A stretch of 64,000 bases of DNA from Ensifer adhaerens (GTDB lineage Bacteria; Pseudomonadota; Alphaproteobacteria; Rhizobiales; Rhizobiaceae): the NCBI RefSeq assembly GCF_001270265.1, contig NZ_LGAP01000020.1:1-64000 (forward strand). The letters are read 5' to 3'. The notes under the pieces are model-generated. The model had not been told where the DNA came from and did no database searches. It worked only from the letters and a program-made list of their open reading frames with translations. Shown here piece by piece: positions 39,783-59,674 of the stretch (position 1 is the first letter of the stretch; the number at the start of each line of letters is the position of its first letter). The position numbers were made by a program, and so were the translations under genes.

Positions 39783-40598
39783 TCAATAGCCGACTTCGGA
39801 TGCACTCGCTCCCGCAGTCGGCACTGCTACGTGCTCGGAAAAGCTCGCACGCAGGCGGCTGGTCGCTCCTACGAGCAGACTGACATCGTTGCCGACTGCA
39901 ACGAAGAGCGCGCCGAGTTCGAGGTAGCGTTTGGCGAGCGCGGTGTCTGAGGTCAGGATACCGGCAGCCTTGCCGTGCGACTGGATGCGCGCGAGCGCGG
40001 CCTCGACCGCCTGCTGCACGTCCGGCGCGCCCGGCCGGCCGAGAAAGCCCATGTCGGCGGCCAGGTCCGCCGGGCCGATAAAGACGCCATCGACGCCTTC
40101 GGTCGAAGCAATGTCGTCAAGCGCCGCCAGTCCCGCACGGCTTTCCACCTGCAGCAGCAGGCAGATCTCGGCGTTGGCGGTCGGGAGATAATCCGCAATG
40201 CGGTTGAAGGCGGACGCACGCGCCAGTGCTGCACCGACGCCGCGCATGCCGTGGGGCGGATAACGCACGGCCCGGACCAAAGCGCGGGCCTGTTCACCGG
40301 TCTCGACCATCGGCACCAGCAGCGTTTGCGCGCCGATATCGAGGAGCTGCTTGATCAGCCAGGCCTCGCCCATCGGCGGCCGGATGATCGCATGGCTGTT
40401 CGAACCGGAGAGCGCCTGCAACTGTGCCATCATCAGCGGCACGTCATTCGGGGCATGTTCGCCGTCGATCAGCAGCCAGTCGAAGCCGGCGCCACCGCAG
40501 ATTTCGGCCGTGTAGGGATTGGCGAGTGCCAGCCAAAGACCGATCTGCGGCCGTCCTTCGGCAAGCGCAAGCTTGAACATATTGCGTGGAGCAGGCAT
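39783..40598 (-). CDS. hpaI: 2,4-dihydroxyhept-2-ene-1,7-dioate aldolase
   Basis: A 271-residue HpcH/HpaI class II aldolase: [39 protein letters not shown] and [13 protein letters not shown], with the metal-binding glutamate and aspartate in the last two. It splits the C7 hydroxy-oxo acid into pyruvate and succinate semialdehyde, the last step of homoprotocatechuate breakdown. It is the final gene of the hpa operon, 9 nt after hpaH. Confidence 0.93.
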
Positions 40599-41414: not shown

Positions 41415-42284
41415 TCAGGCCTCATCGGCAATCGGGTTGCGAAGCAGGCCGATGCCATCGGCCTCGACCTCGACGACGTCCCCGGGTTTCAGCCAGATCG
41501 GCGGGTCGAAGCGGGCGCCGGCACCGGTCGGCGTTCCCGTCACGATCACGTCGCCGGGCACCAGCGTCGTGAAGGTCGAGACGTAGTTGATGATCTTGCG
41601 GAAGGAGAAGATCATCCGGCTGGTGCGGTCCTGCTGACGGAGTTCACCGTTGACGCGGGTCTCCAGCTTGATATCGGCCAGCTGCGCTTCGTCGGTGAAG
41701 GGAACCAGCCATGGCCCGATTGAGCCCGTGCGGTCGAAGTTCTTGCCCTGGGTGACGTTGAACTTGGCGTGTCGCACCCAGTCGCGGATCGTGCCTTCGT
41801 TAGAGAGCGACAGTGCCGCGATATGGTCGAGCGCCGAGGCTTCGGGAATGCGCCGGCCGCCCTTGCCGATGACGATGACGATCTCGCCCTCGTAGTCGAG
41901 CTGCGGGCTTTCGGGCGGGCGGATCAGCGGCTGATCGTGGCCGGTGAAAGAGCGCGGGAAACGAATGAACAGCGACGGGTTGGAGGGTGCTACCTGGCCA
42001 TCCCGGTACTCTTCGTTGCGGTCGGGAAAATTGACGCCGACGCAGATGATCTTTTCCGGTGCGGGAATCGGGATTTCGAAGCGGATATCGGCGAGTGACC
42101 AATCCGGGGCGAGGGCGGCGGCTTCGTCGGCAAGCCTGGTCAAGGCGCCGTCTGCGATGACTTCGCGCAGCGTCGGCCATTTCGAGCCGTAGCGCCGAGA
42201 TAGATCGACGATGCCGTGATCGGTAACAAGCCCATATCCCTGGCCGCCGGCCGCGGAAAAGGTCGCGAATTTCGCAAATGTCAT
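41415..42284 (-). CDS. hpaG: Fumarylacetoacetase-family decarboxylase/isomerase of the hpa pathway
   Basis: A 289-residue FAH-family enzyme with ICVGVNFPDRNEEY, LDYEGEIVIVIGKGG (metal-binding glutamates) and VIVTGTPTGAGARF. In this operon it should act as the 5-oxopent-3-ene-1,2,5-tricarboxylate decarboxylase/isomerase. It is a single-domain form, unlike the duplicated E. coli HpaG. GGAGG lies 6-8 nt before the ATG; the start overlaps the end of an alternative reading frame running from the decarboxylase gene. Confidence 0.85.
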   Translation of the reverse strand: MTFAKFATFSAAGGQGYGLVTDHGIVDLSRRYGSKWPTLREVIADGALTRLADEAAALAPDWSLADIRFEIPIPAPEKIICVGVNFPDRNEEYRDGQVAPSNPSLFIRFPRSFTGHDQPLIRPPESPQLDYEGEIVIVIGKGGRRIPEASALDHIAALSLSNEGTIRDWVRHAKFNVTQGKNFDRTGSIGPWLVPFTDEAQLADIKLETRVNGELRQQDRTSRMIFSFRKIINYVSTFTTLVPGDVIVTGTPTGAGARFDPPIWLKPGDVVEVEADGIGLLRNPIADEA

Positions 42285-42402: not shown

Positions 42403-43815
42403 TCACCGGTTTGACCCCCCCGCCGCGACCTCGGTTATGACGTCGAAGGCGACATCGGCATCGTCCTCGGTCATGTCGAATTGGCCCGCCTGGAAGCGGA
42501 TGGCGACGCGGCCGTCGACCCGTGTCTGGGTCAGGTAGATCCGGCCATCGTCGTTGATCGCGTTGACGAGCGCGATGTTGTGGGCGTCGCTGTCGGCGCC
42601 GCCGCGATGGCGGAACGAAAACAGCGAGAAGCGCGGGGCCGTGACGATTTCGAAGTTTTCGTTTGCGCCAAGGCGCTCGGCAAGCCGGCTCGCCCAAGAG
42701 ACATGGTTGCGGATCATCGTCTTCAAACCATCCAGCCCGTGGAAGCGCAGCAGGAACCACAGCTTCAGGGCGCGGAAGCGCCTCCCGAGTGGGATGGTCC
42801 ATTCGGAATAATTGATGATGCCGTCGCGGCCGTGGGTCTTCAGATACTCCGGCTGGATCGCCAGCGTTCGGACGAGATCATCAGGATTGCGGATGAAATG
42901 GGCGGAGCAGTCGAACTGGGCGCCCAGCCATTTGTGCGGGTTGAAGACGACCGAATCCGCCGCTTCGACGCCAGCCCAGAGCGAGCGGAATTCTTCGCAG
43001 ATCATCGCCGATCCCGCCCATGCCGCATCGACATGGACGTAGAGGCCGTGCTTGTGGGCGACGCGCAGGACTTCGGCGATATCATCGCAGGCACCGGTGC
43101 TGGTGCCGCCGGTGCAGGCGATGACGCCGGCTGGCAGGAGGCCCGCGTTCTTGTCCCGCAGAATTGCCACTTCGAGTGCTTCGACGTCCATGCCCTGCAG
43201 CGACCCGGTCGCCGGTATGCGCACGAGGTTTTCCTCGCCGATGCCCGACACCCAGATCGCCCTGTCGATCGAGGTGTGGACCTGGTCCGAGGAGTAGATG
43301 CGCAAGGGAGCGTGCGCGCTCAGGCCCTGGCTGTTGCCTTTCCAGTTCAAGGCGCGCTCACGCATGACGAGCACGGCTGACAGTGTGGCGGAGGAGGCCG
43401 AGTCCTGGATGACGCCGGAAAATCCGCCGGGAAGGCCGATCGCCTGGCGCAACCAGTCGAGTACCTTGGTTTCAAGCTCGGTTGCAGCGGGGGAGGTCTG
43501 CCATAGCATGCATTGGGCAGCCATCGCCGTCACCAGATATTCAGCGATGACGGAGACGGGGGCGGCGTTGGCGGGGAAATAGGCAAAGAAGCGCGGGTGC
43601 TGCCAGTGGGTCATGCCCGGCAGGATGATGTTTTCGAAATCCTCGAAGATCGCCGCCATGTCCTCGCCGGTCTGGGGCGGTTTGCTCGGGATCTGGGCGG
43701 AGATTGCGCCGGGTGCCGTCTGGGCGCGAACGGGCCTGTCGCGCAACGACGCGCGATAGGCCGATCCCCATTCCGCCGCCTTCAGCGACCACTCCCCGAA
43801 AGTCTTCTCGTCCAT
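42403..43815 (-). CDS. PLP-dependent aromatic amino acid decarboxylase (group II)
   Basis: A 470-residue type II decarboxylase. The PLP lysine is K295 in FNPHKWLGA; H180 (QVHTSIDRA) stacks on PLP and D263 (VHVDAAWAGSA) binds its nitrogen. The N-terminal PGMTHWQHPRFFAYFPAN and LWQTSPAATELE segments are those of aromatic L-amino acid (tyrosine/DOPA/tryptophan) decarboxylases. It is placed inside the hpa operon, between hpaD and hpaG, so a tyrosine- or DOPA-like amino acid is the likely substrate. Its stop lies next to a run of seven G on the coding strand (see findings). Confidence 0.88.
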   Translation of the reverse strand: MDEKTFGEWSLKAAEWGSAYRASLRDRPVRAQTAPGAISAQIPSKPPQTGEDMAAIFEDFENIILPGMTHWQHPRFFAYFPANAAPVSVIAEYLVTAMAAQCMLWQTSPAATELETKVLDWLRQAIGLPGGFSGVIQDSASSATLSAVLVMRERALNWKGNSQGLSAHAPLRIYSSDQVHTSIDRAIWVSGIGEENLVRIPATGSLQGMDVEALEVAILRDKNAGLLPAGVIACTGGTSTGACDDIAEVLRVAHKHGLYVHVDAAWAGSAMICEEFRSLWAGVEAADSVVFNPHKWLGAQFDCSAHFIRNPDDLVRTLAIQPEYLKTHGRDGIINYSEWTIPLGRRFRALKLWFLLRFHGLDGLKTMIRNHVSWASRLAERLGANENFEIVTAPRFSLFSFRHRGGADSDAHNIALVNAINDDGRIYLTQTRVDGRVAIRFQAGQFDMTEDDADVAFDVITEVAAGGSNR

Positions 43816-43884: not shown

Positions 43885-44865
43885 TTACGGGGCGATGATA
43901 GGTTGCGCCTTCAACGCCGACTCTACCGTCTCGGCGCCGGCAAACTGGCTGCCTTCCTCGAACCAGGAGCGTGGCGCCGGGGCGCCCCAGAGCGTCTGGC
44001 GCTGCGGGTCCTTGAGATCCCATTTGATCGGCTCGAGATCCGGATCGACAGTCTGGTAGTCCGAGCAATAGATCTCGATGCGGTGGTTGTCGGGATCGCG
44101 GACATAGAGGAAGAAGGCATTGGAAATGCCGTGACGGCCGGGACCGCGCTCGATATTGGCGAGCCAGCCGGAGGTCGACATCAGGTCGAGCAGGTCGATG
44201 ATGTTGAGCGGCGTCGGCACCCAGAAGGCAGTATGATGCAGACGCGGGCCGCGACCATTGGTAAAGGCGATGTCGTGCACGCCGCCCTTGCGGTGGGTCC
44301 AGGCCGCCCAGAGACGGCCGGTCTCTTCGTCGGCCGTGTATTCGGTAACCCGGAAGCCGATCTCGTTGTAGAAGGCGACGGCGTCGTCGACATTGGGCGA
44401 GAAGCAGTTGAAGTGGTCGATGCGCAGCGGCTTCACGCCGCGATAGAGCGCGTATTTCTGATGGATCGGCGGCAGGCGGTCCATCTTCGAATAGAATTCG
44501 AGTGGAATGCCCTGCTGATCGCGGGTGCGGAAAGTGCGCGACTGATAAGGGCGCTCGATCCATTCGACCGGCAGCGCCTTCTGCCGGAAGAAATGCGCCG
44601 CCTTATCGAGGTCCTCATCGCCAAAGACCTTGAAGCCGAGGTCACGGGCCTCGGCGGTTGCCGCCTTCTTCAGCACGATGCAGTGATGCCCGCGCTCTTC
44701 CATGGCGCGCAGGTAGATCGTGTCGGCAGTCTCGTCGGTCACCTGCAGCCCCAGGACGTCGACATAGAAGGCGCGCGACTTGGCGAGATCGGTAACGGCG
44801 AGCTCGACATGGCTCAGCCGCACGATGTTGAAGGGCGGGTAGAGGTTCGGTTTCGGTATGGGCAT
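43885..44865 (-). CDS. hpaD: 3,4-dihydroxyphenylacetate 2,3-dioxygenase
   Basis: A 326-residue two-module VOC extradiol dioxygenase of the HpaD/MndD type. Metal ligands are H151 (IDHFNCF), a histidine in RLHHTAFW (210/211) and E264 (HRIEIYCSDY). It opens the ring of homoprotocatechuate beside the two hydroxyls. It lies between hpaE and the decarboxylase. Confidence 0.92.
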   Translation of the reverse strand: MPIPKPNLYPPFNIVRLSHVELAVTDLAKSRAFYVDVLGLQVTDETADTIYLRAMEERGHHCIVLKKAATAEARDLGFKVFGDEDLDKAAHFFRQKALPVEWIERPYQSRTFRTRDQQGIPLEFYSKMDRLPPIHQKYALYRGVKPLRIDHFNCFSPNVDDAVAFYNEIGFRVTEYTADEETGRLWAAWTHRKGGVHDIAFTNGRGPRLHHTAFWVPTPLNIIDLLDLMSTSGWLANIERGPGRHGISNAFFLYVRDPDNHRIEIYCSDYQTVDPDLEPIKWDLKDPQRQTLWGAPAPRSWFEEGSQFAGAETVESALKAQPIIAP

Positions 44866-44907: not shown

Positions 44908-46425
44908 TCAGCCGCCGAGCTTGGCGATCGCATGCGCCGAACTGGCAAACGCGATGTTCTTGGTTTCCATGTAAAAATCGAACGACCAGTCGCCGCCGTC
45001 GCGGCCGATGCCGGAGCTTTTGACGCCGCCGAAGGGCGTCAGCAGATGGCGGACATTCTCCGAATTGACCCAGATCATCCCGGCCTCGAGATGATCGGTG
45101 AAGCGGAAAGCGCGTGTGACGTCGGAGGTCCAGAGATAGCCGGTGAGCCCGTATTGAACGTCATTGGCGAGCGCCAGCGCCTCGGCCTCATCCCTAAACG
45201 GAATGGCGGTCAGGACCGGCCCGAAGATTTCCTCCTGCGCGATCCGCATGGAATTGTTAGCGCCGGTAAAGAGCGTCGGCTGGACGTAGCAGCCGCCACC
45301 AGGGCCTTCGAATTTCGCGCCGCCGGCGGCAATCGTCGCACCTTCCTTCTGGCCGATGCCGATATAGTCGAGCACCTTCTTTTCGTGCTCCGGGTGGATC
45401 AGCGGCCCGACGACGGTTTCCGGATCGAGCGGATGGCCGATCCTGATGCGCCTGGCTTTTTCGGCCACCAGAGCGGTAAAGCTGTTGTAGATGCTGTCCT
45501 CGACCAGCAGGCGGGAAGAGGAGGTGCAGCGTTCACCGTTCAGCGAATAGATCATGAAGACCGCAGCATCGGCGGCGCGCTCCAGATCGGCATCGGCAAA
45601 GACGACGACGGGGTTCTTGCCGCCGAGTTCGAAATGCACCCGCTTCAGCGTGTCGGCGCCCTGCTTCATGATCAGCGAGCCAGTGCGGCTTTCGCCGACG
45701 AAGCCGATGGCCTTGATGGCGGGATGCTCGGTGAGCGCCCTGCCGGCGTCCTCGCCGAAACCGTTGACGAGGTTCCAGACACCCTTGGGAAGGCCGGCTT
45801 CCTCGGCAATCTCGACAAGCAGGCGGGCGGTCAGCGGCGAGAACTCGGCCGGCTTGTGGACGATGGTGCAGCCGGCGGCGAGCGCCGGCGCGATCTTCCA
45901 CGTCGACAGCATGAACGGCGTGTTCCACGGCGTGATGATGCCGACCGGACCGATCGGCACGCGCGTGGTCATGTTGATCTGGTTATCGGCGCGAAGCACC
46001 TTGCCGTCGCGGGCCTCAGGTGCGCGATCGGCAAAGAAGCGAAAGTTCTCCGCGCCACGCAGCGCGGCCTTGGCCATGAACTTCAGCGACTGTCCCGTAT
46101 CCATGCATTCGACGAAGGCGATCTCTTCGGCGCGCGCGACGATGGCGTCGGCGATCTTGTGCAGAAGCTTCTTGCGGGCGTCGCCCGGCATGGCGGCCCA
46201 GGCCGGGAAAGCCTCCTTGGCGGCGCGGGCGGCGCGGTCGATGTCGGCGGCCTTGCCGCGCGAAACGGTGGCAAGCGTCTTCAGGTCGACGGGAGAAATC
46301 GTCTCGAAGCTGTCGCCATCCAGCGCCGGTACGGCTTGGCCATTGATGTGGTTCAAGACCCCGTGCGTGCGGAAGCGGGCGAGATAGGCTTCCGCCTTTG
46401 CGATGTTCTCGTCGAGTCTGGACAT
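44908..46425 (-). CDS. hpaE: 5-carboxymethyl-2-hydroxymuconate semialdehyde dehydrogenase
   Basis: A 505-residue aldehyde dehydrogenase with ITPWNTPFMLSTWK, the NAD-binding KPAEFSP, catalytic glutamate in FELGGKNP and catalytic cysteine in NGERCTSSSR. It oxidises the ring-cleavage semialdehyde. The ATG at 46425 has GGAG 6 nt upstream; an in-frame TTG four codons earlier is rejected. It lies between hpaF and hpaD. Confidence 0.92.
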   Translation of the reverse strand: MSRLDENIAKAEAYLARFRTHGVLNHINGQAVPALDGDSFETISPVDLKTLATVSRGKAADIDRAARAAKEAFPAWAAMPGDARKKLLHKIADAIVARAEEIAFVECMDTGQSLKFMAKAALRGAENFRFFADRAPEARDGKVLRADNQINMTTRVPIGPVGIITPWNTPFMLSTWKIAPALAAGCTIVHKPAEFSPLTARLLVEIAEEAGLPKGVWNLVNGFGEDAGRALTEHPAIKAIGFVGESRTGSLIMKQGADTLKRVHFELGGKNPVVVFADADLERAADAAVFMIYSLNGERCTSSSRLLVEDSIYNSFTALVAEKARRIRIGHPLDPETVVGPLIHPEHEKKVLDYIGIGQKEGATIAAGGAKFEGPGGGCYVQPTLFTGANNSMRIAQEEIFGPVLTAIPFRDEAEALALANDVQYGLTGYLWTSDVTRAFRFTDHLEAGMIWVNSENVRHLLTPFGGVKSSGIGRDGGDWSFDFYMETKNIAFASSAHAIAKLGG

Positions 46426-46494
46426 GTCATTCTCCAATCGTGGTGCGCTGCCGCTCGTGCGGGCGCAGAAATGTCGTGCCGTCTTTTGCCGGTG

Positions 46495-46887
46495 TCAGTT
46501 GCCCTTCTGGCGAAGGCGCGGGTGGATCGCGTTCTTCTTCCAGCTAAGGTCAGGATCGATCTCGCGGATCTCCAGGCTGAGGGCGAAATGGGGCGTGGCG
46601 AAAAGGTCGGCGAGTTCTTGTGTGACGGCGTCGAAGATGGCCTTGCCGGTCGCCTGCTTTTCGGAGTCAGAGCGACCAAGGCCGATGCGGAACGACATGT
46701 CGATGAAGCTGTTCTCTGGCATGAGATCGGCAATGGCATAATGGATGCTGCGGACGGTACGAACGCGGACGGCGCCGATTTCGAAAAGGCCGGTGTCGAG
46801 GATCGTCTTGTGGATCGTGCGGCACAGGCGATCGAAGTCGACGTGTTCGTCGAGATTGGCGGAATGTTCGATCGTGAAGTGCGGCAT
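46495..46887 (-). CDS. hpaF: 5-carboxymethyl-2-hydroxymuconate delta-isomerase
   Basis: A 130-residue tautomerase-fold protein. After removal of Met1 the N-terminal proline (PHFTIEHS) would be the catalytic base, as in HpaF/CHMI. The basic segment AVRVRTVRS and the late RIGLGRSD match the family. It is the first gene of the hpa operon, directly downstream of the hpaR operator region. Confidence 0.9.
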   Translation of the reverse strand: MPHFTIEHSANLDEHVDFDRLCRTIHKTILDTGLFEIGAVRVRTVRSIHYAIADLMPENSFIDMSFRIGLGRSDSEKQATGKAIFDAVTQELADLFATPHFALSLEIREIDPDLSWKKNAIHPRLRQKGN

Positions 46888-47019: not shown

Positions 47020-47490
47020 ATGAGCCGTGCGAAAAACCCCACCGAACTTGGGCCGGACGCCCTTCTTCCCCACAATACGCGTCGGTCGCTGCCGATTGCG
47101 CTCCTGCGCGCGCGCGAGGCGGTGATGGGGCATTTTCGGCCGATGCTGGCACGTCACGAAATCACCGAGCAGCAATGGCGCGTCATTCGGATTCTTGCCG
47201 AATCCGGCAAGGTCGATGCCTCCGAAATGGCCGACAAGGCTTTCATCCTGGCGCCGAGCCTCACGCGCATCATCCGCTCGCTCGAGGAGCGTGGGCTGAT
47301 CACCAAGCACAAGGACGCCGATGACGGCCGTCGTGTGCTGCTCGAGATAGCGCCCGCCGGCATGCGGGTCATTGCCGATGTCAGCCCGGAAAGCCGGGCG
47401 ATCTATGATCAGCTCGAGGCGCGTTACGGCCACGAGCGCGTCGAAGTGCTGCTCGACATGCTGGACGAACTCGCAACGCTCGGCGACTGA
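47020..47490 (+). CDS. hpaR: MarR-family regulator of the hpa operon
   Basis: A 156-residue MarR protein with the HTH/wing region EQQWRVIRILAESGKVDASEMADKAFILAPSLTRIIRSLEERGLI and KDADDGRRVLLEI. It is divergent from hpaF and matches HpaR in length and start (RRSLPIALLRAREAVMGHFRPML). HpaR represses the meta-cleavage operon and is relieved by hydroxyphenylacetates. Confidence 0.92.
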   Translation: MSRAKNPTELGPDALLPHNTRRSLPIALLRAREAVMGHFRPMLARHEITEQQWRVIRILAESGKVDASEMADKAFILAPSLTRIIRSLEERGLITKHKDADDGRRVLLEIAPAGMRVIADVSPESRAIYDQLEARYGHERVEVLLDMLDELATLGD

Positions 47491-47507: not shown

Positions 47508-48521
47508 TCATGCGGGAACCGGTAGCGTTTGCGCCAGGCGCAAGCTCTCATCTGCGTAACGTTTGATGCGGGCTTTAGCGCCGGGAAGCTCGGGCCGCGC
47601 GGCAAACCAACCGATATAGGTCAGGCTCCGAAGCGTCATGAAAATCGGCAGGGTCGAAAGCGCCGCATCGCTCAGCGGCCGCTTGCTCCGATATCCCCCG
47701 ACCAATGATCTTTCGATCGCCTCATAGTTCGGTTCGGTGCGATTCTTCAAAAGCGCCGTCGCGATATCGAACAGCCGGAAGCCGAAACCCGCATCGTCGA
47801 AATCGATGAAGGCCACGCCGTCATCTCTCACCAGCACATTCTCGCGCACCAGGTCGGCATGGATCAGGCCGTAATCATGCCCGCCAGCGGACATTCGTTC
47901 GAGGATGGGTCGCAGCCGGTCGCGCAATCCAGCAAGGCCAAGCTTCTGTTCGTCTGACAGGCCCTGGCAATCCCAGAAGCGTCCCCAAACCGGTCTTTCG
48001 CCGAGCAGACCTTCGGCATCCCACGACGCACGTTTGAAGCCGGTTGGCACCGACCAGCGATCGGCAAGATTGTGCATGTCGGCCATCAAGGCACCAAGCG
48101 CATGAAAAATGACCGCCTGCCGCTCAGCGCCATACGCCAGCGGCACGCCGCTTTCACCAAGCGGAGCACCATGCATCCAGCTGACAATATCGGCATGCTG
48201 ACCGGCGGAATCGTCGGTCGGGGCGAGACGCACGAGAAGGCGGCCGTCCAGTGCCGCGATCGCGCTCGGCACCGCAAGGCCGCCGTCGCGCAGCGCCGTC
48301 ATCCATTGGAGCTCCGAGCGTAACGCGGACTCGTCGTGATAACCGGGACGGTGCAGTCTGAGCGCTGCCGGTTCGCCATCGGCAAGCGTAACGCGGAAGA
48401 CGGCGTTCTCGCGATATTTCAGCAACGTCGGCTTCGCGTTCTCAAGTCCCCAATGGGCGATAGCCTTCTGCGCCCGGGCCTCAAGTCCTTCCAGCAGACG
48501 TCGCGGCAGATGCTCGGCCAT
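47508..48521 (-). CDS. APH-fold kinase, candidate hydroxyamine kinase
   Basis: A 337-residue aminoglycoside phosphotransferase-fold protein. The catalytic loop is GLIHADLVRENVLV (H221, D223, N228) and the metal motif FIDFDDAG (D240). The N-terminal half shows LLKYRENAVFRV and AALRLHRPGY. The closest functional families recalled are hydroxylysine kinase and type II homoserine kinase, which phosphorylate small hydroxy-amines. It starts 7 nt after the phospho-lyase-like gene and ends the overlapping operon, so it probably supplies the phosphorylated substrate for that enzyme. Confidence 0.8.
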   Translation of the reverse strand: MAEHLPRRLLEGLEARAQKAIAHWGLENAKPTLLKYRENAVFRVTLADGEPAALRLHRPGYHDESALRSELQWMTALRDGGLAVPSAIAALDGRLLVRLAPTDDSAGQHADIVSWMHGAPLGESGVPLAYGAERQAVIFHALGALMADMHNLADRWSVPTGFKRASWDAEGLLGERPVWGRFWDCQGLSDEQKLGLAGLRDRLRPILERMSAGGHDYGLIHADLVRENVLVRDDGVAFIDFDDAGFGFRLFDIATALLKNRTEPNYEAIERSLVGGYRSKRPLSDAALSTLPIFMTLRSLTYIGWFAARPELPGAKARIKRYADESLRLAQTLPVPA

Positions 48522-48528
48522 GGTCCGC

Positions 48529-49812
48529 TCACAAGCCCGACAAAACGTCGTCGAGGGTGGACAGCATCAGATCGGCGTTCTCCTTCGAGAACGGCATGGG
48601 TGGGCGGATCTTCGTCGCGCATTGATGAATGCCGAGCTTGCCCATCAGCACGCCACGCTCGCGCATGTCGTTGATAACCTTGGTGGCGAGGTCGGCGGCC
48701 GGGGTCTTTTTGTCCCGATCGAGCACAAGCTCCGCTCCAAAAAACAATCCGCTGCCGCGCACGTCACCGATGATGTCGTGCTTGTGGCTGAGCCTGTCGA
48801 TGCCGGCCTTGGCATAGGCGCCGATCTCGCAGGCGTTGTCGATGAGCTTTTCGTCGTCGATGACGTCGAGCACCGCCATCGCCGCGGCGCAGGACACGGG
48901 ATTGCCGCCGAAGGTGTTGAAGTAGCGGAAGGCCTTGCGGAACGCATTCAACGTATCGCTGCCGGCAACGACGCCACCGATCGGGTGGCCGTTGCCCATC
49001 GGCTTGCCGAGCGTGACGATATCGGGAACGATGCCGGCCTTCTGGTGGCCCCACATATGCTCGCCCGTGCGGCCGAAGCCGGGTTGCACTTCGTCGGCAA
49101 TCACGACGCCACCGGCTTTCCGCACTGCAGCAACCGTCGCGTCAAGGAAGCCCGACGGCAGATCGGGAAAACCTTCATTGGCGAAGAACGGGTCGATGAT
49201 CAGGGCGGAAAAGCCAAACGGGCTTTCCTGCAGATCGGCGATCGCCTTTTCCACCTCGGCGGCAAACGCGATCGAAAAGGCTTCGCCGGAAACACCGCCG
49301 AGCGGCCGGTAGCTGTCGGGTGCCGGCACGTGGCGCACATGGCCGCCGAAGCCGCCGACCGGCGGCATCCGGGTGGAAAGCTGCGAAACGGCAGCGGTGT
49401 TGCCATGATAGGTGTGGTCGGTTGCGATGACCCCGGTCTTGCCGGTGACGGCCTGGGCCATGCGCAGTGCAATGTCGTTGGCCTCGCTGCCGGTGCAGGT
49501 GAGGATTGCCGTGTCGAGGCCGTCATCGAAGGTCGCCGTCAACCGCTCGACATAGTCGAGAATCCCCTCATGCAGGTAGCGCGTGTGGGTGTTCAGCGTC
49601 GATGCCTGCCGGGTAATCGCCTCGACCACGCGCGGATGGCAATGGCCGACATGCGGCACATTGTTGTAGCAGTCGAGATAGCGTCTGCCGTCGGCGTCAA
49701 AGAGCCAGACGCCTTCTCCCCTGATGATATGGACCGGGTCGCTGTAAAACAGCGACATGTTTTTGCCGAGCAGCCGTTCGCGGCGTGCCAGCAGGGCTGC
49801 CGTATCGCTCAT
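48529..49812 (-). CDS. Class III PLP enzyme, O-phosphoamine phospho-lyase-like
   Basis: A 427-residue class III aminotransferase-fold protein with PLP lysine K270 (TLGKPMGNGHP) and D240 (VIADEVQPGFGR). Several stretches match animal ethanolamine-phosphate/5-phosphohydroxylysine phospho-lyases as I remember them rather than ordinary transaminases: CYNNVPHVGHCHP, MGNGHP, YFNTFGGNPVSC and IRPPMPF. Those enzymes eliminate phosphate and ammonia from an O-phospho-amine to give an aldehyde. It lies directly before the APH-fold kinase and 1 nt after the omega-aminotransferase gene. An ordinary amine aminotransferase activity is the alternative. Confidence 0.78.
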   Translation of the reverse strand: MSDTAALLARRERLLGKNMSLFYSDPVHIIRGEGVWLFDADGRRYLDCYNNVPHVGHCHPRVVEAITRQASTLNTHTRYLHEGILDYVERLTATFDDGLDTAILTCTGSEANDIALRMAQAVTGKTGVIATDHTYHGNTAAVSQLSTRMPPVGGFGGHVRHVPAPDSYRPLGGVSGEAFSIAFAAEVEKAIADLQESPFGFSALIIDPFFANEGFPDLPSGFLDATVAAVRKAGGVVIADEVQPGFGRTGEHMWGHQKAGIVPDIVTLGKPMGNGHPIGGVVAGSDTLNAFRKAFRYFNTFGGNPVSCAAAMAVLDVIDDEKLIDNACEIGAYAKAGIDRLSHKHDIIGDVRGSGLFFGAELVLDRDKKTPAADLATKVINDMRERGVLMGKLGIHQCATKIRPPMPFSKENADLMLSTLDDVLSGL

Positions 49813-49813
49813 G

Positions 49814-51172
49814 TTACTTGCCCTCGGCAGCGCTCAGGCCTGCATCGAGAGCCGAAAGAATGCGCGTGACATCCGCGGCGGTGATCACGAGCGGCGGCGA
49901 CATGATCACGTTCGGGCCGGATGTGCGGACCATGACGCCGGCCTCATAGGCCACATCCTGGACCTTCTGCACCACGTCCTTGGCAGCCGGCGACTTTTTC
50001 TCGCGGTCCGACACCAGCTCGAGCGCGCACATCAGACCCTTGCCGCGCACATCGCCGATGATCTCGTGGCTGGCCTTCAATGCCAGCAGACCGGCGATCA
50101 GCTCATCGCCGCGCGCGCCGGCATTGGCCGCGACATCGAGGCGTTTCGTTTCTTTGAGCGTGGCAAGGGCTGCAGCCGCGCCGACCGGGTGACCGGAATA
50201 GGTGTAGCCATGGCCGATCGATCCGGCTGCTGTTTTATTGCTTTCGAAAGCCTCGGCAACCTTGTCCGAGATCATCACCGCACCGAAGGGGTAATAGCCG
50301 TTGGTGATCGCCTTGGCGGTCGACATCAGGTCCGGCTTGACGCCCCAGAGGCGCGAACCGGTCCAGGCGCCGGTGCGGCCGAAGGCGGTGATCACCTCGT
50401 CGGCGATCAACAGAATGCCGTGACGGTCGCAGATTTCTCGCATCAGCGGCATGAAGGTTTCGTGCGGAACGATCACGCCGCCGGCACCGAGCACCGGCTC
50501 CATGATCAGCGCGGCGATGGTGTCGGCGCCCTGGAAGGCGATCTCGTCCTCGAACAGGCGGGCAATGCCCTGGGCGATCTCGGCGCCGTCCGTGGTCGCG
50601 AACGGGTTGCGGTAGGTATAGGGCGCGGGAAGGTGATAGACGCCCGGCAGCAGCGGCTCGTAGTTGCGGCGGAAATTGGAATTGCCGTTGACCGAAGCGC
50701 CGCCGAAATGGGTGCCGTGATAGCCCTTCTTCAGCGCGACGAATTTTGTGCGTTCCGGCTGGCCGTTGAGCTTGTGGTACTGGCGGGCGAGACGAAGGCA
50801 GGTCTCGACCGAATCCGATCCGCCCGAGGTGAAGAACGAGCGGCTGAGGCCATCCTCCTTGAACCATTCGGCGAGTTCGTAGGAAAGCTCGATCAGCGGC
50901 GAATTGGTGGTACCGCGGAACGTCGAATAATAGGGCAGCTCGTCGAGCTGGTCGCGGATCGCCTTTTTCACCGGCTCGCAGGAATAGCCGAGATTGACGT
51001 TCCACAGGCCGCCGACCGCATCGAGTACCTTCTTGCCGTGGATGTCGACGATCTCCACGCCCTCGCCGGCATTGATGATGCGCGGCGGCGTTGCGTGCAT
51101 TTCGGCGGGGTGCGCCATCGGGTGCCAGAGGTGGCGGGCGTTGTTCTCGATGAGGAAGTTGGTTTCGCGCAT
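49814..51172 (-). CDS. Class III omega-aminotransferase
   Basis: A 452-residue omega-amino acid/amine aminotransferase. The PLP lysine is K287 (STAKAITNGYYPFGAVM) and D258 lies in LIADEVITAFGRTG. The start (LWHPMAHPAEM) and GYTYSGHPVGAAAAL are typical of amine:pyruvate or beta-alanine:pyruvate transaminases. It would convert a primary amine to an aldehyde. It is distinct from its operon neighbour, which has phospho-lyase-like motifs. Confidence 0.88.
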   Translation of the reverse strand: MRETNFLIENNARHLWHPMAHPAEMHATPPRIINAGEGVEIVDIHGKKVLDAVGGLWNVNLGYSCEPVKKAIRDQLDELPYYSTFRGTTNSPLIELSYELAEWFKEDGLSRSFFTSGGSDSVETCLRLARQYHKLNGQPERTKFVALKKGYHGTHFGGASVNGNSNFRRNYEPLLPGVYHLPAPYTYRNPFATTDGAEIAQGIARLFEDEIAFQGADTIAALIMEPVLGAGGVIVPHETFMPLMREICDRHGILLIADEVITAFGRTGAWTGSRLWGVKPDLMSTAKAITNGYYPFGAVMISDKVAEAFESNKTAAGSIGHGYTYSGHPVGAAAALATLKETKRLDVAANAGARGDELIAGLLALKASHEIIGDVRGKGLMCALELVSDREKKSPAAKDVVQKVQDVAYEAGVMVRTSGPNVIMSPPLVITAADVTRILSALDAGLSAAEGK

Positions 51173-51190: not shown

Positions 51191-51838
51191 TCAAATGCCG
51201 AGCATCCGGAGGGCTCTGGCGTAGCTTTCTGCGGGTCTGGTGACATCGAAATGCACATTGGGAAGAGACACTGCCTCGGCGCCCTCGATGTTCTTCTTCT
51301 GGTCGTCGACGAAGACACAGGCCTCTCGCGGCAGGCCGAGTTCGGAAAGCACGAGTTCGTAGGCCTGTGGATCCGGCTTCAATATTCCGGTGTAGGTGGC
51401 ATCGACGATGACGTCGAAAAGCTCGATCAGCGGGAAACGTTTGCGAAACTCCACGCCGTAGAAGAGGTCGAGTTCGTTGGAGAGAATGGCGAGCCTGATG
51501 CCGGCATTCTGCGCCCGCAGGATCGCATGGCGCGCTTCCGGGCGCAGCACCAGCTCCGGCTCGGCGCCGCGGGCGCGCTGGACGAAGGTCTTCATATCCC
51601 TCCAGTCTTCGCCGACGAGGAGCCCGACCTCACGTGTGCGCTCCATCCAGTAGTCGCGTTCGGTGATTTCGCGTTTTTGCATCGAGACCCAGAGCGGATC
51701 GGACGCCGTGTCGAACGGTCCCCGCCAGGTCAGGCTGCCTGGGGCAAGGCCGAGCGCGCGCTCGGTGACGTCGTGGGTTTCAAACAGGGTGCGGGTGACG
51801 ACGCCGCCGAAGTCGAGGATGAGGGCCCGGTCCGTCAC
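51191..51838 (-). CDS. HAD-family hydrolase
   Basis: A 215-residue HAD subfamily IA hydrolase. Motif I is LILDFGGVV, motif II LAILSNELD, motif III around the lysine of GILKPDPQAYE and motif IV VFVDDQKKN. Most such proteins dephosphorylate small metabolites. It starts with GTG overlapping the UPF0261 stop (GTGA) and lies 18 nt before the aminotransferase gene. Confidence 0.85.
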   Translation of the reverse strand: MTDRALILDFGGVVTRTLFETHDVTERALGLAPGSLTWRGPFDTASDPLWVSMQKREITERDYWMERTREVGLLVGEDWRDMKTFVQRARGAEPELVLRPEARHAILRAQNAGIRLAILSNELDLFYGVEFRKRFPLIELFDVIVDATYTGILKPDPQAYELVLSELGLPREACVFVDDQKKNIEGAEAVSLPNVHFDVTRPAESYARALRMLGI

Positions 51839-53088
51839 GGGCGGCCTCCGGGGATGACACCGCGGGCGATCCAGTCGTCGAAGATGGCGAGCGCCATCGC
51901 GGAGAACTCAGGTGCGTTGATGTGGCTGTCGATTTCGTGAAGGCTGACGGATGGCGGCACGGCGCGGCGCATCTCGTCGATAAAGGCGTCGAGTGCCTCC
52001 GGTTCGTGCAGCGGCTCTTCCGGCTTGTCCCATTCCTGAATGCCCTTGAGCGGCAGGATGAAAGCGACTTCGGCGCTCGTGTCGGCGAGTTTGCCGCCGA
52101 TGATGCGCGCGATCTCGCGCCGGCCTTCCGGAGATGTCGTCACCGAACCGAGCAGCCGGTTGTGGGCATGGTAAGGCCGATCCGCGAAAGCAGCGGGCAG
52201 CGCCTGCCAGGCGGGCAGGTCGACCATGTCGACTGCTCCCGGCGCAACGAGTTGCGGAATTCCGGCGCGTCCGGCATTTTCCAGGCGATCGGGACCGGAG
52301 GTGACGACGGTGCCATGGTGATGGTTGCTGACCTCCTGGATGCAGAAGTCGAAGACGGCGGTGAAGCCGTTTTGTGCGGCAATCGCCTCGAAGGCGCGGC
52401 CGCCCATGCCGGTCGCGTGAAACACCGCGACGTCATAGCCGCGTCGTTCCAGCTCGGGCTTCAGGTATTTCATGTATTTGAGGCAGCTTGACCCGAGCGA
52501 GGTCATGCCGATCAGCGGACGATCCTTGTCCGGCCTGGTGCCGAAACGCGCGGCCCCGACCACGGCGCCACAGGCCTGCGAAAGCACCGACCGGCAAATG
52601 CCGTTGAGCCCGTAAAGCCCCCCGGCCCACAGGATCATCATCAGATCAGGCGCGATGCGCTCGGGCGGCAGCAGATGCGAATAGGCGATTGTCGAGACGA
52701 CGAATTTCGGCACGCCGAGCGGCAGGGCTGCCGCAACATCGAGCGCCAGATCGGTGCCCATCGAACCGCCGAGGATGATGACGCCATCGGCCTGCCCCGC
52801 ATCGTGGAGAGTGCGGGCAAGGGTTGCGGCACCCTTGGCCATCAGCGCCATCGCGCTGTTTTCGTCGCCGCTCGCGGCAATCGCTGTAATCGACGTGCCG
52901 GCCGCCTCGGCGATATCGTGGCGCGAATATTCCGGTGCATAGGGTGGGTCACCGAGAATGCTGACGTCCATCATGACAGGCAGGCCGCCTGCCTCGCGGA
53001 TGACCGACGCCATGAATTGCAACTCTTCGCATTTCGTGTCTCCCGTTCCCACGACGAGGATATTGGGTAGACGGTTCATCGCATTCAT
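51835..53088 (-). CDS. UPF0261/Tm-1-like ATP-binding family protein
   Basis: A 417-residue protein of the UPF0261 (Tm-1-like) family, with the N-terminal ILVVGTGDTKCEELQFMASVI and the glycine-rich IILGGSMGTDLALDVAAALPLGVPK, then FGTRPDKDRPLIGMTSLG, VFHATGMGGRAFE and HINAPEFSAMA. The plant relative Tm-1 binds a viral replicase; bacterial function is not settled. The operon position between IclR and a HAD phosphatase suggests an enzymatic catabolic role. The start overlaps the IclR stop by one base. Confidence 0.85.
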   Translation of the reverse strand: MNAMNRLPNILVVGTGDTKCEELQFMASVIREAGGLPVMMDVSILGDPPYAPEYSRHDIAEAAGTSITAIAASGDENSAMALMAKGAATLARTLHDAGQADGVIILGGSMGTDLALDVAAALPLGVPKFVVSTIAYSHLLPPERIAPDLMMILWAGGLYGLNGICRSVLSQACGAVVGAARFGTRPDKDRPLIGMTSLGSSCLKYMKYLKPELERRGYDVAVFHATGMGGRAFEAIAAQNGFTAVFDFCIQEVSNHHHGTVVTSGPDRLENAGRAGIPQLVAPGAVDMVDLPAWQALPAAFADRPYHAHNRLLGSVTTSPEGRREIARIIGGKLADTSAEVAFILPLKGIQEWDKPEEPLHEPEALDAFIDEMRRAVPPSVSLHEIDSHINAPEFSAMALAIFDDWIARGVIPGGRP

Positions 53089-53870
53089 CAGCCGGCCCTC
53101 CTTGCCAGCGGATTGGCAGTCGCCTGCTCCAACCCAAAGAATTTCTCAGAGATGCGTTTGGCGATCGCTGCCGTTGCCGGCCCGAGTTCAGCGATCGTAT
53201 CGGCATTTGCGCGCACCTGCGGTGCCGCGACAGCGATCGCGCCGATCGGCATGCTGTTCGGCGCGCGGATGGGGGCGGCGACGCTGATGACCCCGCTCTC
53301 AAGCCCCTGCTGGCTGATGGAATAGCCGCGTTGGGCGGTCTCCGCGAGCAGACGGCGAAGCTCCGTTCTCGACGTGATCGTGTTGTCGGTGAAGGCTTCA
53401 AGCGGCCCCGACAAGATATCCTCGACCTGTTTTGGCGGGCAGAAGGCGAGGAAGGCGTGGCCGGAGGCGGTCGCATGGAAGGGCAGCGCGCTTCCGACAT
53501 CGACGATAACCCGGTGCGCCCGCGGCGAATCTTCCACGTGAACGGTCGACAGTCGGCCGGCGACGAATTCCGAGAGATGCACGGTCTCGCCTGATGCGTT
53601 GGCAAGCTCTTTTACAAACGGAATCGCGAGCTTGAGAAAGGGAAAGCGCGCTTCCCGAATGCGGGCAAGCCGGACCGGCGCGCCGCCGATGCGATAACGC
53701 TTGGTGTCCGGATCCTGTTCGACGAATCCATGTCTTTCAAGCTCGACGAGAAAGCGCCGCGCCGTCGCCTTGTCGAGCGCGCAATGCCTGGCGATGTCGC
53801 TCAAGCCCACTTCTTTGTCCAGCCGCGAGATCGCGTCCAAGAGGGTCAGTGCCTTACCGATGGTGCTCAT
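53088..53870 (-). CDS. IclR-family transcriptional regulator
   Basis: A 260-residue IclR regulator: winged HTH in the first 70 residues (VGLSDIARHCALDKATARRFLVELERHGFV) and an effector domain (SGHAFLAFCPP, GYSISQQGLESGVISVAAPI). The ATG at 53870 follows GGAGGA at 6 nt and is preferred over the ATG at 53900. First gene of the minus-strand operon with the phospho-lyase and kinase, and divergent from the permease/aldehyde dehydrogenase unit; it likely controls both. Confidence 0.92.
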   Translation of the reverse strand: MSTIGKALTLLDAISRLDKEVGLSDIARHCALDKATARRFLVELERHGFVEQDPDTKRYRIGGAPVRLARIREARFPFLKLAIPFVKELANASGETVHLSEFVAGRLSTVHVEDSPRAHRVIVDVGSALPFHATASGHAFLAFCPPKQVEDILSGPLEAFTDNTITSRTELRRLLAETAQRGYSISQQGLESGVISVAAPIRAPNSMPIGAIAVAAPQVRANADTIAELGPATAAIAKRISEKFFGLEQATANPLARRAG

Positions 53871-53930
53871 CCAGTCCTCCGTCGCCGAGCGCCGCCGCAA
53901 GTGATCCCGATGCCTGTTCCCCTGATTTCC

Positions 53931-54177: not shown

Positions 54178-55629
54178 ATGGACAATCAATCGTCGCCCGT
54201 AACCGGCGCGAACCAGCTGCGCAAGAATGCGCTCGGGGTCGGTGCCGTCACATTTCTCGTGGTATCGGCCGCAGCGCCGCTGACGGCGGTTGCCGGCGGC
54301 GTGCCGCTGGCAATGCTGCTCGGTAACGGCGCCGGCATTCCCGGCACGTTTCTGCTGGTCACGCTGATCCTTTTGATGTTTTCGATCGGCTACGTGGCCA
54401 TGGCGCGGCATATCCGCAACGCCGGCGCCTTCTACGCCTATACCGCGCAAGGGCTGGGTGGGTTGATGGGCGGTGCTGCGGCGATGATCGCGATCCTTGC
54501 CTACAACGCCATGCAGATCGGCGTCTTCGGCCTGTTCGGTGCCGCAACCGCAGGCCTCTTTGCCGGCCTCGGTATCGACCTGCCCTGGTGGGTCTGGACC
54601 TTTATCGGTATCGCCATCGTCGGCGTTCTCGGTTACCGCCGTGTCGACCTGTCGGCGAAGGTGCTGACCGTGCTGGTCATTCTCGAATATCTCGTCGTGC
54701 TGGCCATCGACGTGGCGATCATCGCCAAGGGCGGCGACAGCGGTCTGACGATGACGTCCTTCACGCCTTCGGCCCTCATGTCCGGGTCTCCCTCGATCGG
54801 CATCCTGTTCTGCTTTGCAGCCTTCATCGGCTTCGAAGCGACGACGATCTACAGCGAGGAAGCCCGCGATCCCCACAGAACCGTGCCGCGTGCGACCTAT
54901 ATCTCCGTGCTGATCATCGGCGTGTTCTACATGCTGACATCCTGGCTGATGGTGAATGCGGCCGGTGCCGACGAGCTGGTGCCGGAACTGCAGGGTTTGG
55001 CCGACCCGACGACCTTCCTCTTCGGCCTGGCGGAGCGCTATGCCGGCGGCTGGCTGCCGCCGATCATGAATGTACTCTTCGTCACCAGCCTGTTTGCCGG
55101 CGTGCTGGCGTTTCACAATGGTGTCGCCCGGTATCTCTATGTGGCCGGTCGTGAGCGCCTGCTGCCGGCGTCCGTTGGCGTCACCCATCCGGTCTATCAT
55201 AGCCCGCATGCCGGTTCGGTCATCCAGACGATCACTGCAGCGCTCGTCGTTGCGCTGTTTGCAGCAACGGGACAGGATCCGGTGCTGGCGCTGTTCTCGT
55301 GGCTCACCAATGTCGGCACGCTCGCCGTCATGGTGCTGATGGCCTTTACCGCCTTTGCCATCGTCGCCTTCTTCAACCGCAATCCGGGGCTGGAATCGAA
55401 TACGCTCGTGACCAAGATCATCCCGGTCGTGACAGGCGTCATCCTGATTGCGGTGATCATCGCCATAACAATCAACTTCGGTGATCTCGCCGGAGCGACG
55501 GGCTTGCTCGCCGTCTTCCTGCCCGGACTTGTCGTGATTGCCGGCGTCATCGGACTTGCGCTGGCGGCGATGCTCAAATCGGGCCGACCGCTCGAATTTG
55601 CCCGGCTTGGCGCCGGCCAGGAGATCTGA
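54178..55629 (+). CDS. APC-superfamily amine/amino acid permease
   Basis: A 483-residue membrane protein with twelve hydrophobic segments. APC-family pieces are VGAVTFLVVSAAAPLTAVAGGVPLAML at helix 1 and FIGFEATTIYSEEARDPHRTVPRATY around helix 6. AGGGGAG precedes the ATG. It imports an amino acid or amine; its neighbours (aldehyde dehydrogenase downstream, divergent aminotransferase/phospho-lyase operon) suggest an amine-type substrate. Confidence 0.9.
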   Translation: MDNQSSPVTGANQLRKNALGVGAVTFLVVSAAAPLTAVAGGVPLAMLLGNGAGIPGTFLLVTLILLMFSIGYVAMARHIRNAGAFYAYTAQGLGGLMGGAAAMIAILAYNAMQIGVFGLFGAATAGLFAGLGIDLPWWVWTFIGIAIVGVLGYRRVDLSAKVLTVLVILEYLVVLAIDVAIIAKGGDSGLTMTSFTPSALMSGSPSIGILFCFAAFIGFEATTIYSEEARDPHRTVPRATYISVLIIGVFYMLTSWLMVNAAGADELVPELQGLADPTTFLFGLAERYAGGWLPPIMNVLFVTSLFAGVLAFHNGVARYLYVAGRERLLPASVGVTHPVYHSPHAGSVIQTITAALVVALFAATGQDPVLALFSWLTNVGTLAVMVLMAFTAFAIVAFFNRNPGLESNTLVTKIIPVVTGVILIAVIIAITINFGDLAGATGLLAVFLPGLVVIAGVIGLALAAMLKSGRPLEFARLGAGQEI

Positions 55630-55688: not shown

Positions 55689-57167
55689 ATGCAGGAAAAA
55701 ATCGACCAGTTGCGCTACGATCTGGTGCCGCCGCAAAAGCTCTTCATTGGCGGCAATTGGCGCGAGGCCCGGTCCGGCAGGACGCTCGATGTCATCTCGC
55801 CGATCGACGGGACGCGGCTGACGACCATCGCCGATGCCGATGTCGACGACGTCGATGCCGCTGCGCTTGCCGCCCGGGCGGCCTTCGAAAAAGGCACGTG
55901 GTCGAGGGCCGCACCGGCGGAGCGCAAGAAAGTGCTTCTGCGCGTCGCCGAACTCATCGAGAAAAACGCGCTCGAGCTTGCCGTTCTCGGCGTGCGCGAC
56001 AATGGTACCGAGATTTCGATGGCGCTGAAAGCGGAGCCCGGCAGTGCCGCTGGCACCTTTCGCTACTATGCCGAGGCGATCGACAAGATCTATGGCGAGA
56101 TCGCGCCGACCGCTGGCAACGTGCTCGGCCTCATCCATCGCGAGCCGGTCGGCGTCGTCGCCGCCATCGTTCCCTGGAATTTTCCGCTGATGATCGGCGC
56201 CTGGAAGATCGCGCCAGCGCTTGCGGCCGGCAATTCGGTCATCCTGAAGCCGGCCGAGGGCGCGTCGCTGACCCTGCTGCGGCTGGCTGAACTCTGTGCC
56301 GAGGCCGGGCTACCCGAGGGCGTTCTGAACGTCGTGACGGGCAGGGGCGCCATGACCGGCGAGGCGATCGGTCTCCATGCCGAAATCGACGTGCTCGCTT
56401 TCACCGGTTCGGGCGGCGTCGGGCGTCGACTGCTGGAATATTCCGCACGCTCCAATCTCAAACGCGTCTACCTGGAACTGGGTGGCAAGTCGCCGAACAT
56501 CGTCTTTGCCGATACGCCGGATTTGGACCAGGCGGTCAAGGTGTCTGCCTATGGCATCTTCCGCAACTCCGGCCAGGTCTGTGTCGCCGGCTCGCGCCTG
56601 CTGGTGGAGCGGTCGATCCACGAAGCCTTCGCCGAGAAGGTTGCCGCGATCGCGGCAAACATAAAGGTGGGCGATCCTCTGATGCTGTCGACGGAAGCCG
56701 GCGCGATCGCCAGCCAAATCCAGCTCGAAAAAAACCTCGGTTTCGCCGAGCAGGCGATAAACGAAGGCGCGCGACTGAGGGTCGGCGGCAAGCGTATCCT
56801 TGAACAGACGGGCGGCTTCTACATGCAGCCGACGGTCTTCGACGTCGAGCCCGGCATGACACTCGCCAAAGAGGAGGTCTTCGGGCCGATCCTGTCGATC
56901 ATTCCCTTCGATGACGAGACTGACGCGCTCCGCATCGCCAACGGAACCGAATACGGGCTTGCGTCGGCCGTCTGGACGGCGAACCTGTCGCGGGCGCATC
57001 GCATGGTGCGCTCCATCCGGGCCGGCGTCGTCCACGTCAACACCTATGGTGGCGCCGACAATACGGTGCCGCTTGGCGGGGTGAAGCAATCGGGCAATGG
57101 CCACGACAAGTCGCTGCATGCGCTCGACAAATACACCGACCTCAAGACCGCCTGGATCCAGCTCTAA
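55689..57167 (+). CDS. PuuC-like NAD-dependent aldehyde dehydrogenase
   Basis: A 492-residue aldehyde dehydrogenase with VPWNFPLMIGAWK, KPAEGAS, catalytic glutamate in LELGGKSPNI (about 265) and catalytic cysteine in NSGQVCVAG (about 298). The C-terminus (HALDKYTDLKTAWI) resembles PuuC, a broad-range amine-derived aldehyde dehydrogenase. It follows the permease by 59 nt. In this cluster it could oxidise arylacetaldehydes to arylacetates, feeding HpaBC. Confidence 0.88.
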   Translation: MQEKIDQLRYDLVPPQKLFIGGNWREARSGRTLDVISPIDGTRLTTIADADVDDVDAAALAARAAFEKGTWSRAAPAERKKVLLRVAELIEKNALELAVLGVRDNGTEISMALKAEPGSAAGTFRYYAEAIDKIYGEIAPTAGNVLGLIHREPVGVVAAIVPWNFPLMIGAWKIAPALAAGNSVILKPAEGASLTLLRLAELCAEAGLPEGVLNVVTGRGAMTGEAIGLHAEIDVLAFTGSGGVGRRLLEYSARSNLKRVYLELGGKSPNIVFADTPDLDQAVKVSAYGIFRNSGQVCVAGSRLLVERSIHEAFAEKVAAIAANIKVGDPLMLSTEAGAIASQIQLEKNLGFAEQAINEGARLRVGGKRILEQTGGFYMQPTVFDVEPGMTLAKEEVFGPILSIIPFDDETDALRIANGTEYGLASAVWTANLSRAHRMVRSIRAGVVHVNTYGGADNTVPLGGVKQSGNGHDKSLHALDKYTDLKTAWIQL

Positions 57168-58006: not shown

Positions 58007-58016
58007 GGTGACTGCC

Positions 58017-59653: not shown

Positions 59654-59674
59654 TTGTACTTTTTCGGGTGGTTC

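Follow-up and report, generated by a model that had tools for sequence, protein, structure and literature searches.

In the 64,000-nucleotide stretch of Ensifer adhaerens contig NZ_LGAP01000020.1 analyzed here (the window), a gene pair encoding an APH-fold kinase and a class III pyridoxal 5'-phosphate (PLP) enzyme probably opens the catabolism of 2-amino-1-arylethanols, with octopamine and noradrenaline as the most likely substrates in this genome and phenylethanolamine where the pair lies beside paa genes. The initial annotation of this DNA had placed the kinase gene 7 nt behind the PLP gene on the minus strand and had quoted four motifs for the PLP enzyme; both reading frames were recovered as described, and all four motifs are present in the translation. 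The two genes are as follows.

47508..48521, minus strand: APH-fold kinase, proposed aryl-amino-alcohol O-kinase; 337 aa, motifs HADLVRENVL and IDFDDAGFG intact, AlphaFold2 model available, best fold match 6ef6.
48529..49812, minus strand: predicted PLP-dependent phospho-lyase of the class III aminotransferase fold; 427 aa, expected PLP lysine in GKPMGNGHP, best fold match 5g4i, then 6tor.

The PLP enzyme matches the Pfam family Aminotran_3, and its best NCBIfam match is PRK06148 with 521 bits, under the cut-off of 1128 for this model, which describes a fusion of 1015 positions. Against PDB sequences it scored 412 bits with 5g4i, 361 bits with human ETNPPL (6tor) and 206 bits with dialkylglycine decarboxylase. 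Its AlphaFold2 model (pLDDT 89.1) retrieved 5g4i as the best Foldseek match (TM score 0.93, 45% identity), followed by 6tor. In a tree of 51 rows the enzyme falls into a clade of 30 rows together with A1RDF1, the protein of 5g4i (SH-aLRT 99), and ETNPPL groups outside this clade with two fusion-type paralogues from the genome of the window. We rooted the tree on the branch (support 95) that splits off AT2, the class III enzyme encoded next to the lyase, together with three remoter class III paralogues; these four are transaminase-type by family only. Residue K270, which by family knowledge is the PLP lysine, is invariant in 20 sequences. Tree and fold thus agree with the earlier assignment and support the view that 48529..49812 encodes a phospho-lyase by descent, with a predicted activity to match, rather than a transaminase. 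A position among true transaminases, which had been named as the outcome that would speak against this assignment, was tested with the tree, which came out against it, and we dismissed transaminase function because the enzyme groups with phospho-lyases. The same genome encodes four more phospholyase-like paralogues with 53, 48, 44 and 40% identity (contigs C23, C4 and C89; loci L134-L137), three of them in open frames of about 1000 aa, the size of the fusion. These sequences suggest that several kinase-lyase routes are present in one rhizobium.

The kinase matches Pfam APH with 79.5 bits. The APH fold and the HxD...N and DFD catalytic motifs are intact, and H221, D223, N228, D240 and D242 are invariant in 26 sequences. 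Position analysis also found residues specific to its clade. By sequence and by fold the nearest solved relative is 6ef6, entitled 'Structure of the microcompartment-associated aminopropanol kinase' (AlphaFold2 model pLDDT 93.2; TM score 0.81, 35% identity). This aminopropanol kinase is a closer model than the animal hydroxylysine kinase cited in the initial annotation. The window kinase does not group with the 6ef6 and R. jostii RHA1 kinases; it belongs to a separate clade of 41 rows with support 100. The name homoserine kinase, found in some annotations, was rejected (46.6 bits against an NCBIfam cut-off of 271). The kinase is not common: at E<=1e-40 it was found in 41 of 199 genomes of the order, most with 31-37% identity and outside the clade, at E<=1e-35 in 23 of 398 genomes of the phylum, and, with the kinase of Mesorhizobium as query, at E<=1e-55 in 5 of 369 genomes of the class of genome G327. 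Matches on plasmids of Klebsiella and Rahnella have 48-49% identity among those listed.

The 6ef6 kinase acts on CH3-CH(OH)-CH2-NH2, which carries a methyl group where Ar-CH(OH)-CH2-NH2 has an aryl group. The aryl counterparts include octopamine, noradrenaline and phenylethanolamine, from which phosphorylation followed by PLP-dependent elimination would yield an arylacetaldehyde. We infer each reaction step and the exact substrate from family, fold, motifs, operon structure, linkage and co-occurrence. The amine would be taken up by a permease, and its benzylic hydroxyl group would be phosphorylated by the kinase at the expense of ATP. The PLP enzyme would form an aldimine with the primary amine, remove the proton beside the nitrogen and expel phosphate; the enamine released would turn into an imine and hydrolyze to (hydroxy)phenylacetaldehyde and ammonia. 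The divergently encoded aldehyde dehydrogenase would oxidize this aldehyde to (di)hydroxyphenylacetate, and HpaBC and HpaD-I would complete the breakdown. Phenylethanolamine would take the place of these substrates in relatives that have paa genes. Other candidate routes to the arylacetaldehyde adjoin the pair in relatives, namely aromatic amine dehydrogenase (AADH) and tyramine oxidase; the candidate in the window is AT2, which may convert tyramine or dopamine to that aldehyde. The Schiff base of a PLP lyase can form only with a primary amine, and the secondary amines synephrine and adrenaline are therefore unlikely as direct substrates and would require prior N-demethylation. Secondary amines might be N-demethylated by DAO-type FAD oxidoreductases, genes for which are found less than 9 kb from the pair in loci L155, L165, L170 and L179.

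We compared the neighborhoods of related kinases in a FastTree of 176 rows, in which a clade of 126 rows (support 100) forms the ingroup and 49 kinases from random genomes plus 6ef6 lie outside; L124 was too short and was excluded. As arylacetate-type markers we counted at least two of hpaB/D-I at >=42%, two paa genes or PaaK at >=45%, AADH, or a gene like that for the phenylacetaldehyde dehydrogenase FeaB at >=45%. A marker was present in 40 of the 126 ingroup loci (L112 and L215, one place in one genome, are counted twice in this figure) and in none of the 49 outgroup loci (p = 4e-7). By marker the ingroup counts are 22 for hpa, 6 for paa (L048, L118, L147, L142, L149 and L172), 9 for AADH and 10 for FeaB-like genes. 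When only loci from random genomes were taken the result was 15/35 against 0/49 (p = 2e-7). An adjacent lyase gene stands beside 104 of the 126 ingroup kinases but only 19 of the 49 outgroup kinases, and we therefore repeated the comparison with adjacent pairs; it stays significant but is weaker (39/104 against 0/19, p = 7e-4; random-genome loci only, 15/34 against 0/19, p = 3e-4). The 80 named loci were taken as the top-scoring matches of the Mesorhizobium kinase and are not a random sample; 18 of them have a marker, as do 14 of the 52 longer than 18 kb. Ten plasmid loci (L039-L048) were hand-picked from match lists.

Loci linked to hpa, paa, AADH, FeaB or tyramine oxidase genes turn up repeatedly in different parts of the kinase tree. 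Of the 136 fetched loci with both genes, 123 have lyase and kinase adjacent on one strand and less than 300 nt apart. Rhizobium, Agrobacterium and Mesorhizobium also have the operon of the window next to hpa genes. Both observations argue that the arrangement is not due to chance. The operon runs directly into hpaF-E-D in Rhizobium etli and Rhizobium sp. NZLR1; in Agrobacterium CFBP7129 it is followed by hpaR and one other gene before hpaF-E-D, and in Pseudosulfitobacter the pair is near hpaR with hpaF-E-D at 10-12 kb. In Mesorhizobium AR07 the order permease-lyase-kinase is followed by paaX and paa genes. Several paa genes adjoin the pair in Pseudomonas insulae (L147) and in L118, and paaK does so in the metagenome-assembled genomes L142 and L149. 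The Woeseia/Woeseiaceae metagenome-assembled genomes L164 and L172 have the order short-chain dehydrogenase/reductase (SDR)-lyase-kinase-FeaB-AADH heavy chain-AADH light chain, and FeaB and AADH genes stand immediately behind the pair in L164, L172 and L250. The heavy chain of L164, the only one so compared, scored 183 bits with AADH and 126 bits with methylamine dehydrogenase. In Phyllobacterium zundukense, genes annotated as tyramine oxidase and aldehyde dehydrogenase lie near permease-lyase-kinase-SDR, a locus outside the marker counts. Among the hand-picked loci, the stretches of Gemmobacter (L041) and Pseudomonas MPC6 (L046) had no aromatic marker, and that of Shinella (L042) has an aromatic amino acid decarboxylase (AADC) gene without hpa.

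Three further arrangements were seen in relatives. An SDR-like gene directly precedes the lyase gene in L142, L149, L164, L172, L175 and L190, an arrangement reminiscent of the aminopropanol dehydrogenase of the microcompartment pathway. The megaplasmid of Ruegeria pomeroyi DSS-3 (L255:7716-14144) groups an AT2-type aminotransferase, an aldehyde dehydrogenase, the lyase, the kinase (SPO_RS21630, annotated 'homoserine kinase') and a Tm-1-like gene. In Sphingobium TomTYG74 (L257:1-13826) the pair is near protocatechuate 4,5-dioxygenase and vanA-like genes.

The association with hpaD was also seen across whole genomes. In 199 genomes of the window's family we searched for the kinase (E<=1e-55) and HpaD (E<=1e-80); the two sets, obtained at equal settings and with matching handles, were taken as an identical draw of genomes. 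The kinase was found in 20 genomes, HpaD in 51 and both in 19, so that hpaD was present in 19/20 kinase carriers against 32/179 other genomes (p = 5e-12). Ten carriers lack hpaD in the stretch of about 20 kb examined around the kinase gene, and 9 of them have it elsewhere (against 32/179, p = 4e-6), mostly on other contigs of draft genomes and in two cases on the same contig, 290 kb and 3.5 Mb away. The control gene hmgA had no clear link with the kinase (15/20 carriers against 99/179 others, p = 0.10). Among 13 hand-chosen genomes hpaD (E<=1e-40) was found in five, G037, G474, G851, G619 and G297 (in the last about 14 kb from the kinase gene), and not in G256, G409, G412, G452, G972, G327, G684 or G803; of these, G327 has linked paa genes (L118) and G803 linked AADH genes (L250). 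PaaA was found in 20/29 named genomes against 5/35 outgroup genomes (p = 1e-5), a comparison that is confounded by taxonomy and gives weak support. Together, the recurring linkage and the co-occurrence with arylacetate pathways support the aryl substrate class initially proposed. The initial interpretation as a whole is supported in part.

Several observations weigh against an aryl substrate. Within the DNA examined, in which some contigs are short, 86 of the 126 ingroup loci have no marker, and neither do 38 of the 52 named loci longer than 18 kb. The Fisher tests ignore the kinship of the genomes, and in several of the hpaD cases counted as unlinked the two genes are on different contigs of a draft assembly. 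Family f60 contributes four genomes (G256, G409, G412 and G452) that, like G972, carry the kinase without hpaD and also without linked paa genes. The HAD and UPF0261 proteins, frequent partners of the pair, are not needed in the proposed route. Finally, A1RDF1 is reportedly active on O-phosphoethanolamine, which is not aromatic. The f60 genomes belong to the class of the window and form one subclade (L115, L116, L117 and L119), in which recurring neighboring genes resemble NAD-salvage genes, as judged from first residues only.

The pair might instead serve a small aliphatic amino alcohol, such as ethanolamine, 1-amino-2-propanol or alaninol, with the hpa genes as incidental company. The nearest solved kinase is an aminopropanol kinase, a kin kinase of R. 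jostii RHA1 lies within a microcompartment locus, human ETNPPL by its name acts on phosphoethanolamine, and the 86 loci without an aromatic marker would fit such a substrate. However, the clade excludes the 6ef6 and RHA1 kinases with support 100, none of the 49 outgroup kinases, of which 19 have an adjacent lyase, has aromatic neighbors, the linkage to arylacetate-type genes recurs over the tree, and the co-occurrence with hpaD persists where the genes are not close. In addition, the four other phospholyase-like paralogues in the genome could take other substrates. We therefore consider an aliphatic substrate unlikely and favor an aryl amino alcohol. The microcompartment pathway itself was set aside: the kinase lies outside the 6ef6/RHA1 group, and profile scans of nine proteins around the pair found no microcompartment shell genes.

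In the window the pair forms the end of a six-gene minus-strand operon, IclR-UPF0261/Tm-1-like-HAD-AT2-lyase-kinase, with gaps of -1, -4, 18, 1 and 7 nt in this order. On one side the operon is flanked by hpaR and hpaF-E-D-[AADC]-hpaG-H-I, and on the other, beyond the divergent permease and aldehyde dehydrogenase genes, by hpaC, hpaB and an AraC regulator gene. Profile and sequence matches confirmed the surroundings given in the initial annotation, namely AADC, an amine-type permease, a PuuC-like aldehyde dehydrogenase, HpaBC and the full hpa set; AT2, the HAD protein and the UPF0261 protein, behind an IclR regulator, are additional members of the operon. The genes hpaB, C, D, E, F, G, H and I occur together in the window, and all eight match annotated Rhizobium etli genes with 69-91% identity. 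The HAD and UPF0261 genes often accompany AT2-lyase-kinase in hpa-type clusters. Over the kinase-lyase pair the DNA is 86% identical to a plasmid of Ensifer canadensis; the host genome measures 7.46 Mb. The neighboring genes are as follows.

39783..40598, minus strand: HpaI aldolase (R. etli match).
40608..41411, minus strand: HpaH hydratase (R. etli match).
41415..42284, minus strand: HpaG-like enzyme of the fumarylacetoacetate hydrolase family; HpaG name by position relative to R. etli.
42403..43815, minus strand: AADC of the DOPA/tyrosine type; nearest PDB sequence DOPA decarboxylase, 383 bits.
43885..44865, minus strand: HpaD homoprotocatechuate 2,3-dioxygenase (R. etli match).
44908..46437, minus strand: HpaE semialdehyde dehydrogenase (R. 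etli match).
46495..46887, minus strand: HpaF isomerase (R. etli match).
47020..47490, plus strand: HpaR-like MarR regulator, convergent with the kinase gene; 62% to annotated hpaR of Rhizobium sp. NZLR1.
49814..51172, minus strand: AT2, the other class III PLP enzyme of the operon, of the omega/amine transaminase type; precedes the lyase gene with a gap of 1 nt.
51191..51838, minus strand: HAD-family hydrolase, frequent partner in hpa-type clusters.
51835..53088, minus strand: Tm-1-like/UPF0261 protein, frequent partner in hpa-type clusters.
53088..53900, minus strand: IclR-type regulator, first gene of the operon.
54178..55629, plus strand: APC amino acid/amine permease, divergent from the operon.
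55689..57167, plus strand: PuuC/StyD-like aldehyde dehydrogenase, proposed (hydroxy)phenylacetaldehyde dehydrogenase, divergent from the operon.
57494..58087, minus strand: HpaC-like flavin reductase; name by position relative to R. etli.
58017..59579, minus strand: HpaB-like 4-hydroxyphenylacetate 3-monooxygenase; 91% to the R. etli gene so annotated.
59654..60556, plus strand: AraC regulator, which we take to be HpaA-like; 52% to an R. etli helix-turn-helix gene in the equivalent place.

The AADC gene in the window and in several relatives would also fit a different aromatic amino alcohol, such as an O-methylated one (normetanephrine type), the decarboxylation product of a beta-hydroxy aromatic amino acid, or an amine released from plant hydroxycinnamoyl-octopamine amides. 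Plants are a source of such octopamine amides, and a P450 gene follows the aldehyde dehydrogenase gene in two Rhizobium loci and lies close by in two named Mesorhizobium loci and in L113. Neither P450 nor AADC is constant among the clusters of relatives, however, and we regard this explanation as somewhat less probable still than an aliphatic substrate. Cytochrome P450 genes by the aldehyde dehydrogenase gene were noted in the hpa-type clusters of L039 (23653-24834), L040, L113, L210 and L217, and might serve in demethylation of N- or O-methylated amines.

A hydroxylysine route as in animals appears very improbable. An animal hydroxylysine kinase and a phosphohydroxylysine phospho-lyase were reportedly described in a 2012 paper and share the reaction type proposed here. 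However, the neighbors of the pair are arylacetate genes, and no lysine or aminoadipate catabolic gene was apparent among the nine scanned proteins or in the annotated R. etli neighborhood. The animal pathway was set aside, as gene context gives it no support.

Among characterized enzymes, A1RDF1 of Paenarthrobacter (Arthrobacter) aurescens TC1 most resembles the window lyase, with which it shares fold and clade. A stretch of 103 residues of 5g4i is identical to the product of gene ABM10818 on plasmid pTC2, near which lie genes for an APH kinase, an APC permease and two FeaB-like aldehyde dehydrogenases, and hpaI-H-D-E; in contrast to the window, the lyase gene does not form a contiguous operon with its kinase gene, the two being on opposite strands with a TetR gene between them. 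Human ETNPPL is likewise of the phospho-lyase branch of class III PLP enzymes but lies outside the clade linked to aromatic genes. The aminoacetone utilization microcompartment, the source of the (S)-1-amino-2-propanol kinase 6ef6, resembles the window in combining a kinase for a 1,2-amino alcohol, a class III enzyme, which we take to be a phospholyase, and an aldehyde dehydrogenase at one locus. It differs in its shell proteins (present in RHA1), its aliphatic substrate and the position of its kinase in the outgroup. In the degradation of tyramine and dopamine, an amine oxidase or AADH acts together with FeaB to feed the enzymes of hpa or paa; this route would share its aldehyde and lower pathway with the proposed one, and its genes adjoin the pair in several relatives, but it would leave the beta-hydroxyl group in place. 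PbfA, the (R)-1-hydroxy-2-aminoethylphosphonate ammonia-lyase, is another class III lyase that gene context ties to one degradation pathway (PMC8154272), as is the case for the window lyase. PbfA differs in expelling water, and the window lyase scored 212 bits on the NCBIfam model for PbfA against a cut-off of 525.

In the open-license literature, which leaves subscription journals mostly uncovered, we found no paper on an octopamine phospho-lyase, on a kinase for octopamine, noradrenaline or phenylethanolamine, on octopamine phosphate or on octopamine catabolism, and none of the titles listed pointed to a route of this kind. Pseudomonas was reportedly shown in the 1980s to grow on aromatic biogenic amines, and we know of no genes assigned to removal of the beta-hydroxyl group from octopamine or noradrenaline on the way to (hydroxy)phenylacetate. 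Papers on 4-hydroxyphenylacetate enzymes report an engineered HpaB acting on octopamine and refer to work from 1988 in which aromatic biogenic amines pass through homoprotocatechuate (PMC10816480, PMC12718150). The reaction type is known; provisionally, the substrate class, the pathway links and the breadth appear to be new.

These results name two candidate genes, a proposed chemistry and assayable substrates for the removal of the beta-hydroxyl group from octopamine and noradrenaline. Beyond the window, it seems rather likely, though with less assurance than for the pair itself, that a route in which aryl amino alcohols (octopamine, noradrenaline, phenylethanolamine) are first phosphorylated and then undergo elimination is scattered broadly through Proteobacteria and at least one Actinobacterium. 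There it would have been linked more than once with hpa or paa as the lower pathway and with amine transaminase, AADH or tyramine oxidase as alternative sources of its aldehyde, and A1RDF1 would be a member whose physiological substrate has gone unrecognized. If so, the solved phospholyase A1RDF1 would gain a physiological role, and the annotations 'homoserine kinase' and 'aspartate aminotransferase family protein' would be corrected. The route would also bear on the consumption of animal and plant signaling amines by soil, root and marine bacteria.

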